Positions 52,798 through 56,736 of a stretch of 64,000 nt of DNA are shown here, in pieces. Positions within the stretch are counted from its first letter, which is position 1; each line of letters opens with the position of its first letter. A model generated the notes under the pieces. It searched no databases, had not been told where the DNA came from, and was given only the letters and a program-made list of their open reading frames with translations. Both the position numbers and the translations under genes were made by a program. The stretch is taken from assembly GCA_002937505.1 (NCBI GenBank), contig PTJY01000001.1, positions 310,001 through 374,000 on the forward strand, in the 5' to 3' direction. The stretch is from Alphaproteobacteria bacterium MarineAlpha12_Bin1. GTDB taxonomy: Bacteria; Pseudomonadota; Alphaproteobacteria; UBA6615.

Positions 52798-54378
52798 TTA
52801 GTAAAAAGTCAGAGCTTTTGCCTGTACTACATTAGGTAGATTTGCAACTGCTTTTAACACTTCTACATTTACTTCAACATCAACTTCAACTAAGGCTATG
52901 GCGTCCCCACCTGGTTTAGTTCTGCCTAGATGGAACGAACCAATATTAATACCCGCTTCACCCAAAATAGTACCCAGGCCACCAATCAAACCAGGACGGT
53001 CATCATTATTCACATATAACATATGAGAGCTTAATTCTGCCTCAATCGGTACACCCTTAACATTGACCAACCTAGGCTTATCCTCTCCGAATAAAGTTCC
53101 TTCAACGCTTCTTGTTTGATTTTCAGTCGTAATAATCAGTCTAATAAGAGTCTGATAATTGGATTGTCTATCATGACGAACATCAGAAACTTCTATTCCC
53201 CTCTGTCCAGCCATCACTGGAGCACTCACCATGTTAACCCCCTCCAGTAAGGGAGACAAAAGTCCTTTGAGGACAGCTGCATTCAGGGCTTTGGTGTTAA
53301 GTTCTGCAGCATGACCTTCATACTCAATACGCACAGATTTTATGCCAGATTCTGTCATTTGACCCGCAAAACTGCCTAATTGTTCTGCTAACTTCATATA
53401 AGGTTTTAAACGAGGAGCATCTTCCGCGCTGACAGAAGGCATATTCAGTGCATTGGCCACCGCACCTGTGAGCAAATAATCTGCCATTTGTTCTGCCACC
53501 TGTAAGGCCACATTTACCTGAGCCTCAGTAGTAGAGGCTCCAAGATGGGGGGTACACACCAAATTTGGGGTACCAAAAAGAGAGTTATCCTTAGCTGGCT
53601 CAACTTCAAACACATCAAGAGCAGCTCCTGCAACATGTCCCTCTTCAAGGGCAACCCTTAAGTCCTCCTCAACGACCAGTCCACCTCGAGCGCAATTAAT
53701 TATACGAACCCCCTGTTTGGTTTTTGAAAGCGCTTTCGCATCAATTATACCTCTGGTCTGATCCGTCAATGGTGTATGCAGGCTAATAAAATCAGCTCGT
53801 TGCAATAATTTATCAAGAGTGACCTTTTCAACGCTAATATCTCTTGCATGCTCAGGAGTTAGAAATGGATCGTAGGCTATTACCTTCATCTTTAAACCAT
53901 GAGCACGTTCTGCCACGATCGAGCCAATGTTACCACATCCAATTATACCAAGTGTCTTACCAGTTACTTCAACACCAACAAACTTTGATTTTTCCCATTT
54001 ACCGGCCTGAGTTGACAAGTCTGCCATAGGAATTTGTCGGGCTAACGCCATAATCATAGCAATAGCGTGCTCAGCTGTCGTTATAGCGTTACCAAAAGGA
54101 GTGTTCATTACAACAACTCCATTTGCAGTAGCTGCTTCTATATCTACATTATCCACTCCAATCCCGGCGCGACCTATAACCTTTAGGTTCTTGGCCTCTG
54201 CTAGGATAGCAGATGAGACTTTTGTAGCTGACCGGACTGCCAACCCTTCATAATCATTGATACAAGAAATTAGTTCGACTTCCGTTAGGCCTGTACGAAC
54301 ATCAACATCTATACCACGATTAACAAACACCTCTTCGGCGAGAGAGCTCATAGAATCAGAAATTAAGATTTTAACCAT
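52798..54378 (-). CDS. serA: D-3-phosphoglycerate dehydrogenase
   Basis: 526 residues, the long three-domain form. The NAD-binding domain has LGIIGCGNIGSIVAERA, the catalytic Arg/Glu/His set includes HLGAS, then an intervening (ASB) domain and a C-terminal ACT domain (NNDDRPGLIGGLGTILGEAGINIGSF). It oxidises 3-phosphoglycerate as the first step of serine synthesis. The ACT domain suggests serine feedback. serC is upstream on the same strand, so serC-serA form an operon. Confidence 0.97.
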   Translation of the reverse strand: MVKILISDSMSSLAEEVFVNRGIDVDVRTGLTEVELISCINDYEGLAVRSATKVSSAILAEAKNLKVIGRAGIGVDNVDIEAATANGVVVMNTPFGNAITTAEHAIAMIMALARQIPMADLSTQAGKWEKSKFVGVEVTGKTLGIIGCGNIGSIVAERAHGLKMKVIAYDPFLTPEHARDISVEKVTLDKLLQRADFISLHTPLTDQTRGIIDAKALSKTKQGVRIINCARGGLVVEEDLRVALEEGHVAGAALDVFEVEPAKDNSLFGTPNLVCTPHLGASTTEAQVNVALQVAEQMADYLLTGAVANALNMPSVSAEDAPRLKPYMKLAEQLGSFAGQMTESGIKSVRIEYEGHAAELNTKALNAAVLKGLLSPLLEGVNMVSAPVMAGQRGIEVSDVRHDRQSNYQTLIRLIITTENQTRSVEGTLFGEDKPRLVNVKGVPIEAELSSHMLYVNNDDRPGLIGGLGTILGEAGINIGSFHLGRTKPGGDAIALVEVDVEVNVEVLKAVANLPNVVQAKALTFY

Positions 54379-54428: not shown

Positions 54429-55601
54429 CTAGACTTGAAATTCAGACTTTACTTCAGAATATGCCCAGTCTAACCAAGGAACCAATGCTTTTAGGTTTTC
54501 CGTTTCTACTGTGGCTCCTGCCCATATACGTAAGCCAGGTGGTGCCGAACGATAGGCACTAATATCATAAGCCACCTTTTCTGATTCCAACAAAGAAGCA
54601 ATAGAATTAGCAGCGTTGGTTCTTTTTTCTTCACTCAAATCTCTAAACCAGGGATCAATAATTTTTAGGCATACACTAGTCGACGACCTATAGCTTTTTT
54701 CTTCAGCAAGAAACTCAACCCAGTCTGACTTAGAAACCCATTCACTGAGTATATTCAAGTTTTTATCACAACGAGATATTAAGGCAGGCAAACCGCCAAT
54801 ACTTCTAGCCCAAGATAGAGCATCTAACTGATCCTCAACACATAACATTGAAGGAGTGTTAATGGTGCTCCCATTAAATATTTCCTCAGTTATCTTTCCA
54901 TTTTTGGTGAGCCGAAAAATTTTAGGCATCGGCCACGATGGCACATAGGAAACTAACCTTTCAGCAGCGCGGGGACTGATAACCAGCATGCCATGTTGTG
55001 CTTCCCCACCTAGTACTTTCTGCCACGACCAAGTCACTACATCCAGCTTGTTCCATGGAATGTCCATAGCAAAAACAGCAGAGGTAGCATCACATATGGT
55101 TAAGCCTTTTCTTTTATCAGATATCCAGTCACCATTGACAACCCTGACACCGGATGTGGTTCCATTCCAAGTGAAAACACAATCTCTATCAGAATCAACT
55201 TGTTCTAAATCAACTAATTGACCATAAGGAGCTTCAAAAACTCTTACGTCCTGGAGTTTTAACTCTCCAATGATATCCGAAACCCATCCAGTTCCGAAGC
55301 TTTCCCAAGCCAGTACATCAATGCCTACTGGCCCCAATAATGACCAAAGAGCCATCTCGACAGCTCCAGTGTCAGAAGCAGGAACTATTGCTATTCGATA
55401 ATCTTCTGGAATTCCCAGTAATTCACGACTTTCATTAATCACCCTTGTGAGTTTAGACTTAGGAGCCTTAGAGCGGTGGGATCTACCCAAGTCAGCGTCA
55501 GACAACACCCCAATATCCCAGCCAGGGCGCTTTGCGCAGGGCCCAGATGAAAAATGGGGGTTGGACGGCCGAATAGTCGGTTTTACTTGTGTGTTTTGCA
55601 T
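54429..55601 (-). CDS. serC: Phosphoserine aminotransferase, alphaproteobacterial type
   Basis: 390 residues, PLP class V. It makes phosphoserine from 3-phosphohydroxypyruvate. The start ([21 protein letters not shown]) and the PLP lysine in [16 protein letters not shown] fit the longer alphaproteobacterial/archaeal group. Its ATG is preceded by a structured leader that contains the ribosome-binding site. Confidence 0.96.
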
Positions 55602-55605
55602 TTAA

Positions 55606-55644
55606 GCGCCCCTTTCAGAACGCCGCCCCTCGTTGGGGAGGGAT
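55606..55644 (-). ncRNA. serC leader: two-hairpin RNA element over the ribosome-binding site
   Basis: Read on the minus strand. Hairpin 1: TCCCTC, loop CCCAAC, GAGGGG (55643-55626). Hairpin 2: GCGTTCT, tetraloop GAAA, GGGGCGC (55623-55606), seven pairs including G-U pairs; it buries the AGGGG that would serve as Shine-Dalgarno site, and the ATG follows four bases later. A conserved two-hairpin 'serC motif' before alphaproteobacterial serC genes is described in Rfam; identity with it is from memory. Confidence 0.7.
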
Positions 55645-55656
55645 GGCCCAGTAACA

Positions 55657-55684
55657 TACGTAAACAGTTTCTCATTAAGGTCAA
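55657..55684 (-). promoter_or_regulatory. Candidate serC-serA promoter
   Basis: On the minus strand TTGACC (55684-55679) and TACGTA (55662-55657) are 16 bases apart. Initiation about seven bases further, near 55650, would start the transcript just before the first leader hairpin, which supports both calls. Confidence 0.5.
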
Positions 55685-55834: not shown

Positions 55835-56281
55835 CTAATTTCTTTTTCGAACCATAATTATAGTCGTAAAAATAGCAACAACACCGCCTTTATTACTTAT
55901 GGTATATTGAAAATGTACAATACCGCGATCTGATCTGCTTTTAGACACTCGGCAATCAGTTATTTCAACTAAAGTATTTAACACATCTCCTGGCCTGACA
56001 GGTGCCAACCAACTTATATCCTTCATACCTGGACCCCCTAGGCTAGTGCCTTTTAGCAGCCCTGTTCTTAACCACTGCCCTGCGGCAATTGCTATTGTTT
56101 GAAACCCACTTGCAATTAATCCTCCATATACTGACTTTTCAGCTGAGTCTTTATCAATGTGGAAAGGTTGAGGGTCATATTTTTCTGCAAACGCTATAAT
56201 TTCTGATTCGGAAATTGTTACTGGATCGGTGGTGAATTTTTGCCCAAGATACAAATCTTCTAAAAATAACCCTGACATCAT
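55835..56281 (-). CDS. MaoC-like (R)-specific enoyl-CoA hydratase-type protein, copy 2
   Basis: 148 residues, hotdog fold. The hydratase motif is in AEKYDPQPFHID, where the Asp/His pair forms the dyad, followed by the GGLIASGFQT loop. Likely acts on 2-enoyl-CoA or a related thioester. It overlaps the previous MaoC gene by four bases (ATGA), so the two are coupled. Clearly homologous to its neighbour; the pair may form a heterodimer. Confidence 0.88.
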   Translation of the reverse strand: MMSGLFLEDLYLGQKFTTDPVTISESEIIAFAEKYDPQPFHIDKDSAEKSVYGGLIASGFQTIAIAAGQWLRTGLLKGTSLGGPGMKDISWLAPVRPGDVLNTLVEITDCRVSKSRSDRGIVHFQYTISNKGGVVAIFTTIIMVRKRN

Positions 56282-56736
56282 TTTACCCCCAAATTATGGC
56301 GTCTTAATAAAAAAGTGGTACTAATAAACTCAACAGCAGGCGATCCATTCGCAGACATCAAAAACTTTAATCTTATTATCCCCCTGTCTTGCTTTGTTTT
56401 TGACTCACGTACTTCAAGAACTTCAACAGTTGTAGTCAAGGTATCTTCTGGCCTTACTGGTAACAGCCAGTCCACCTTATCTATACCTGGGCCTCCAAGT
56501 GATGATTCGGTGATGTACCCAAGCCGGATAAACTGACCAAATGCCACCGCTATCGTTTGAAGACCACTAGCAATTAAACCGTTATAAGGGCTAGAGATTG
56601 CCTTATCTGGATCCAGGTGAAAACTTTGAGGGTCATAAAGTTTAGCAAATTTTATAATTTCTTCAGCACTTAAAAATGTTGGATCAGTATCTATTATTTC
56701 TCCAACCGTAAAATCTTCTAGGTATTTTGTAGACAA
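56278..56736 (-). CDS. MaoC-like (R)-specific enoyl-CoA hydratase-type protein, copy 1
   Basis: 152 residues. The dyad motif is AKLYDPQSFHLD with NGLIASGLQT after it. Shares LGGPG and PVRPxDTL/VL with the downstream copy along its whole length, so the genes arose by tandem duplication. Lies 166 bases downstream of thiD. The substrate is not known. Confidence 0.88.
   Translation of the reverse strand: MSTKYLEDFTVGEIIDTDPTFLSAEEIIKFAKLYDPQSFHLDPDKAISSPYNGLIASGLQTIAVAFGQFIRLGYITESSLGGPGIDKVDWLLPVRPEDTLTTTVEVLEVRESKTKQDRGIIRLKFLMSANGSPAVEFISTTFLLRRHNLGVK

Follow-up and report, generated by a model that had tools for sequence, protein, structure and literature searches.

A candidate 5'-terminal pseudoknot in the serC leader RNA (RF00517) of an alphaproteobacterial serC-serA operon

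SAM-II and preQ1-I are small pseudoknot riboswitches. The serC motif, which shares a source paper with SAM-II (PMC1273637, in the portion available), has been an orphan since 2005. The RNA family, its Shine-Dalgarno-masking hairpin and the fact that its ligand is unknown are already published in the available portions of PMC1273637 and PMC7266159, and that of PMC3766115 lists the motif with an unknown ligand. In-line probing in 2005 revealed no effect of serine, threonine, PLP, pyridoxal, pyridoxine, pyridoxamine or 4-pyridoxic acid, as reported in the accessible text of PMC1273637. According to the accessible text of PMC7266159, Greenlee et al. 2018 extended the serC motif with more conserved sequence and structure.

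Here we describe a serC leader on the minus strand of a 64,000-nucleotide stretch of the genome of Alphaproteobacteria bacterium MarineAlpha12_Bin1 (contig PTJY01000001.1, positions 310,001 to 374,000), referred to below as the window. This leader shares with RF00517 (Corbino et al. 2005) its sequence, both hairpins, the GNRA loop, the masked ribosome-binding site and its occurrence in Alphaproteobacteria, as well as its placement between a predicted promoter and serC of a serC-serA operon. The window's own features are a hairpin 2 of GCGUUCU/GGGGCGC with three G-U pairs and a hairpin 1 that ends in U-G, and the leader is otherwise ordinary. What is added here are the spacing between the -35 box and a conserved GGG, the complementarity of this GGG to a loop CCC, the occurrence of the core without hairpin 2 in several lineages, and the placement of the motif before serC only, with serA behind. 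The Rfam RF00517 structure line is drawn without the GGG/CCC pairing, unlike the pseudoknot proposed below, and this pseudoknot may already be part of the extended motif of Greenlee et al. 2018. The proposed serC core resembles SAM-II and preQ1-I in being a compact H-type pseudoknot that would adjoin the ribosome-binding site. In contrast to these two RNAs, it has another sequence and a putative ligand, and the 5' terminus of the mRNA would itself supply one of its pseudoknot strands. The PyrR-binding RNA, a protein-read leader named in the accessible part of PMC1273637, is likewise a short hairpin element that controls a biosynthetic operon, whereas a protein partner of the serC leader would be putative.

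Identity and genomic setting of the leader

The first-pass annotation had proposed that this region belongs to the serC motif, with an Rfam scan as the check, and had staked this on a match to RF00517 and on covariation among relatives. Both were found. A cmscan search matched RF00517 at 55602-55653 (minus strand) with 49.5 bits (gathering score 35, E 6.6e-08), and the two hairpins covary. In the 2.34-Mb genome RF00517 scores over the cut-off only once, at 55653-55602 on the minus strand. The leader adjoins serC directly upstream on this strand (54429-55601; phosphoserine transaminase, 390 aa; TIGR01365 serC_2, 616.1 bits, cut-off 448.2), and 50 nt behind serC lies serA (52798-54378, minus strand; 3-phosphoglycerate dehydrogenase, 526 aa; TIGR01327 PGDH, 658.2 bits, cut-off 454), whose product contains an ACT domain. 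The serC-serA operon expected downstream of RF00517 leaders is thus present, as are the two conserved stems, the second with a GNRA loop and the ribosome-binding site. Four bases separate the end of hairpin 2 (55606) from the serC ATG (55601-55599), within the 11 nt that the family description allows between the last hairpin and the start codon. The window's leader is therefore a new member of the published RF00517 family and, as a single occurrence, ordinary. Upstream of serC, two overlapping MaoC-like dehydratase genes (PF01575) occupy 55835-56281 and 56278-56736 on the minus strand, probably as a tandem pair.

Across the sampled genomes of the class, RF00517 was found in 115 of 385 at E 0.001, 111 of them over the cut-off. 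Within the window's family it was present in 22 of 24 genomes, and in 13 of the 13 that are at least 90% complete. SerC of the same type is encoded in 300 of the 385 class genomes, so that many genomes carry the gene without the motif. For comparison, loci were collected with a register scan. It required a TTG upstream and [AG][AC]C in the loop, and it tolerated no more than one failure among the six stem pairs and one among the six G/C letters. Of the 206 loci obtained, L053 and L066 were dropped; they held the sole GGG/CCC mismatches among distinct rows, and their matches lay outside the 110 nt before serC. This left 204 loci, which include some leaders repeatedly, or 164 leaders distinct in 60 nt. 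A stricter scan missed three loci with a bulged stem (L032, L041 and L212), in which GGG and CCC are present by eye. In all 204 loci serC lies downstream of the motif, within 90 nt in 202 and at 152-168 nt in the other two (L065 and L086).

Two covarying hairpins and the masked ribosome-binding site

That two neighbouring hairpins precede serC, the second with a GAAA loop, had been read from the letters beforehand, and this reading stands, both by position in the window and by covariation in 111 relatives. Hairpin 1 (55626-55643, minus strand) consists of six pairs that join 55643-55638 to 55631-55626 around the loop CCCAAC (55637-55632). Hairpin 2 (55606-55623, minus strand) consists of seven pairs, three of them G-U, that join 55623-55617 to 55612-55606 around the GAAA loop (55616-55613). 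We compared these hairpins in alignment A1, which holds 111 distinct relatives out of 117 listed references; the six left out (L036, L048, L095, L176, L192 and L244) have a hairpin 2 that is not cleanly delimited. A1 contained 339 double-changed cells; shuffles averaged 104.6, and none of 500 reached the observed value. Changes on both sides affected 10 of 16 pairs, namely five of six in hairpin 1 and five of seven in hairpin 2, and in a second alignment (A2; 75 rows, including divergent ones under the Rfam cut-off) they affected all six pairs of hairpin 1. Pairing was seen in 99.9% of 1713 A1 cells and fell to 47.6-64.6% in slid-partner controls. Because A1 rows were picked for a clean hairpin 2, this percentage is partly due to selection, and the double changes are the better measure. 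The single-sequence folding check that had been suggested did not set the leader apart from its shuffles: at -19.5 kcal/mol (z -0.39), it was equalled or surpassed by 65 of 200. The serC leader of the window exceeds chance by comparison, not by folding.

The same variation bears on the question of whether the conserved element acts as RNA at all. Hairpin 1 follows closely on the predicted promoter and is, at the DNA level, an inverted repeat, as would be expected of an operator bound by a repressor. However, an operator is expected to keep its letters, whereas the stems change letters and keep their pairs, G-U included, and hairpin 2 carries GNRA loops. We consider a DNA operator very unlikely.

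The tetraloop of hairpin 2 is GNRA in 152 of the 164 distinct leaders, with G, U, A or C at N. The two adjoining pairs (C-G and U-G) are invariant in A1 (U-G in 111 of 111), which fits a need to keep AGG for the ribosome. The predicted Shine-Dalgarno sequence of serC, AGGGG (55609-55613, minus strand), of which AGG is invariant in A1, does lie inside hairpin 2 as the first-pass annotation had it; its distance from the ATG is slightly greater than the four to ten bases given there, with seven bases between. The further suggestion that the C-rich strand of hairpin 1 could pair with this AGGGG instead did not hold up. Such a fold is feasible in the window and has no conservation, with 50.3% and 61.0% of cells paired in the two registers considered, and we rejected it as no better than shuffles in either. 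A separate pairing is visible at 55622-55647 (minus strand), between a GCC and a GGC on either side of hairpin 1. It adds to the minimum-energy fold three pairs that compete with hairpin 2; by eye, this pairing across hairpin 1 is not conserved beyond near relatives.

The bases directly before and after stem 1 are A/C in 154 of 164 distinct leaders, G/U in 5, G/C in 4 and U/C in 1. A-C and G-U wobbles have a similar shape, and the alternation of A/C and G/U at this position is suggestive. A G before stem 1 coincides with a missing GNRA hairpin in eight of nine cases, a count with few lineages behind it.

The predicted 5' end and a candidate pseudoknot

Upstream of hairpin 1 stands an invariant GGG (55647-55649, minus strand), which we predict to be positions +1 to +3 of the mRNA. 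A predicted -35 box, TTGACC, is located at 55679-55684 (minus strand), its first T 35 nt from the first G of GGG (55649). Of the 164 distinct leaders, 97 show this spacing at 35 nt and another 56 at 36 nt (153 together), in a count for which a TTG within a 12-base upstream stretch had been required beforehand. Averaged over the distinct leaders, a -10-like T-A-A/T-T-A/T-T stands at -13 to -8, and the base that precedes GGG is a pyrimidine, C or T, in all 164. Given this spacing, the -10-like average and the pyrimidine at -1, the mRNA should start at GGG or one base earlier. The promoter-like pair from which transcription had been predicted to start directly before hairpin 1 is supported by its good -35 box and the conserved 35-36 nt spacing, and weakened by its -10 region: a strict consensus promoter scan at the window's serC leader found no promoter, because the -10 is weak. 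In essence, the start site was already stated in 2005, when promoters were described as directly preceding all examples (PMC1273637, accessible part). In Sinorhizobium meliloti (L214), GGG has its first G 46 nt upstream of the ATG. Since the serC RNA of A. tumefaciens that was probed in 2005 also had its 5' end at -46 (PMC1273637, accessible part), the probed RNA probably contained GGG. The accessible text of published work on Sinorhizobium, Rhizobium etli and Zymomonas yielded no usable serC 5' end.

A further reading is a leader peptide, in which ribosome progress over a short open frame through the hairpins would set serC expression. Of the 164 distinct leaders, 43 do have a GTG that overlaps the beginning of the motif; however, 79 of the 164 have GCG in place of this start codon. 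The invariant CTGNRAGG was located in 152 leaders, and its distance from GGG was 31 nt in 74 of these and 32 nt in 77, and therefore no frame is kept. We rejected the leader peptide on this shift and give it next to no credence.

The loop of hairpin 1 is mostly CCCAAC or CCCACC and opens with three Cs (55635-55637, minus strand) that are complementary to the 5' GGG. All 111 A1 rows and all 75 A2 rows carry both GGG and CCC, which makes these three base pairs possible in every row; they show no covariation because they never vary, and as the rows were found partly through the GGG/CCC letters, their invariance is partly due to row selection. This complementarity suggests that GGG pairs with the hairpin-1 loop CCC as a candidate H-type pseudoknot. 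The surroundings of CCC are less constant. In A2 the loop-closing pair beside it is C-G in 63 rows, U-G in 10, G-C in 1 and another combination in 1. Among the loci of the register scan, CCCA is followed in the loop by either A or C. A fourth pseudoknot pair, between the base before GGG and the loop A, was considered and rejected, since it was paired in 37.8% of cases against 37.2% in shuffles. A pyrimidine before GGG that does not covary with the loop A is as expected of position -1, not of a transcribed pairing partner. Since the closing pair and the later loop base vary and the -1 base does not covary, the conserved loop block matches the transcribed G run in length. We infer a geometry with a 3-bp GGG/CCC helix, a three-base linker (usually [C/A/U]CA), a 6-bp stem and a loop of AAC or ACC. 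A 3-bp helix, a three-base linker, a 6-bp stem and a three-base loop form a classical H-type pseudoknot geometry.

Transcription initiation, not pairing, could also be the reason why GGG is conserved. It would then serve GTP sensing, slippage or 5'-end protection, and hairpin 2 would set basal translation only. Its position at the predicted +1 to +3 after a G+C-rich discriminator is consistent with this, and in Bacillus pyrG, CTP is sensed by slippage at such a start. However, an initiation role leaves unexplained why the three opposing loop Cs never vary although neighbouring loop and closing positions do, and with C, A or U at +4, no single nucleotide would be sensed by a pyrG-like stall. 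We regard this explanation as improbable.

Proposed sensor, read-out and signal

The pseudoknot reading, which is the one that we prefer, treats the serC leader as an RNA switch that acts in cis from the very beginning of the serC-serA mRNA, with the 5'-terminal pseudoknot as sensor of a signal and hairpin 2 as translational gate; we place its chances at about even. Transcription would begin at the invariant GGG, and this GGG would pair with the CCC of the hairpin-1 loop to form an H-type pseudoknot that acts as the sensor. The signal bound by it would most likely be a small metabolite of serine or one-carbon metabolism other than serine, threonine and PLP. Binding would alter the grip of the adjoining GNRA hairpin on AGGGG and so set serC translation, and serA translation, coupled to that of serC, would be set along with it. 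A core that senses and a hairpin 2 that gates is the most likely division of labor. The annotation had likewise inferred a translational control element responsive to serine-pathway status. The Rfam match and the covariation support its view of the second hairpin as a gate of translation; a serine-pathway response is plausible from the serC/serA context.

This context is restricted. A core-only model matched 110 of 385 genomes, with a single match in each, and in all six of these genomes outside the Rfam matches (G033, G126, G128, G162, G260 and G315) the core lies just before serC. Model R1 was built from the collected rows, and its matches to those rows exist by construction. Of 80 named serC loci, non-alphaproteobacteria included, 37 have the motif by scan, and serA is behind serC in all 37. 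Among the other 43, which are scan-negative, serA is present in 16; these 43 include L041 and L043, which have the motif by eye and also serA. A serine-pathway response is plausible because the motif was seen only before serC, with serA behind in all scan-positive named loci, and the presence of serA behind every named motif suggests the serine pathway rather than PLP.

The restriction of the motif to a single gene is almost equally compatible with a protein partner. SerC, SerA with its ACT domain or another RNA-binding protein could bind the core of GGG and hairpin 1 and free or block the ribosome-binding site, and a core that occurs once per genome and before serC is expected of such autogenous control. 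In the accessible part of PMC1273637, Corbino et al. proposed a PyrR-like protein after their negative ligand tests. A bound protein could also sterically block the nearby ribosome-binding site even without hairpin 2. Against SerC as the partner, SerC of this type is far more widespread than RF00517 (300 against 115 of 385 genomes, as above), so that SerC itself does not demand the motif. We consider control by a protein possible and rather unlikely.

The notion of a sensor apart from its gate comes from lineages in which the core is kept and hairpin 2 is unrecognisable (L036, L081, L248, L257, L259, L260, L277 and L282; the leader of L248 is identical to that of L233). Since hairpin 2 is missing in some lineages, the proposed gate cannot be a general read-out. 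In genomes where no Rfam match exceeded the cut-off, the core was found by eye in 11 of 60 stretches (L248, L251, L253, L257, L258, L259, L260, L276, L277, L282 and L303), a selection hence biased to GGG/CCC. Two further loci, L065 (2824-3000) and L086 (2727-2885), have a long leader, in which the core is followed by a hairpin away from the ribosome-binding site and then by about 100 nt more. By eye, and in these two loci only, the last hairpin, CTCCCTTC...GAAGGGA(G) with seven Ts, stands directly before the serC ATG. CCCTTC and GAAGGG occur twice each in alternation, and the arms could exchange partners. This long leader may be an attenuator form. A terminator scan of L065 and L086 listed none; the tool counts loops of 3-8, and the loops here are longer by reading.

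We propose, at somewhat less than even probability, that the sensor is a 5'-terminal H-type pseudoknot, formed by the first three bases pppGGG and the hairpin-1 loop CCC, and that it is a separable module. The masking hairpin would be its usual and dispensable read-out, lost in several lineages and replaced by the long leader in L065 and L086. If the first three mRNA bases belong to the sensor, the native 5' end has to be preserved in ligand tests and in reporter fusions, and an mRNA would carry the sensor or lack it altogether depending on the start site chosen. Lineages without the masking hairpin would then be natural minimal sensors for binding tests, and the ligand question would become more directly testable.

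Other serC genes have other surroundings. The Kiloniella-type serC loci (L035, L046, L052, L058 and L294; four named loci and one further genome) are without the serC motif; a conserved leader of another kind, GCGACCTGAAAAAGTCGGTTTGCGACCC..., precedes their start codon. In Agrobacterium sp. T29 (L213), a plasmid-borne serC, also without the serC motif, lies beside an aspartate aminotransferase family gene.
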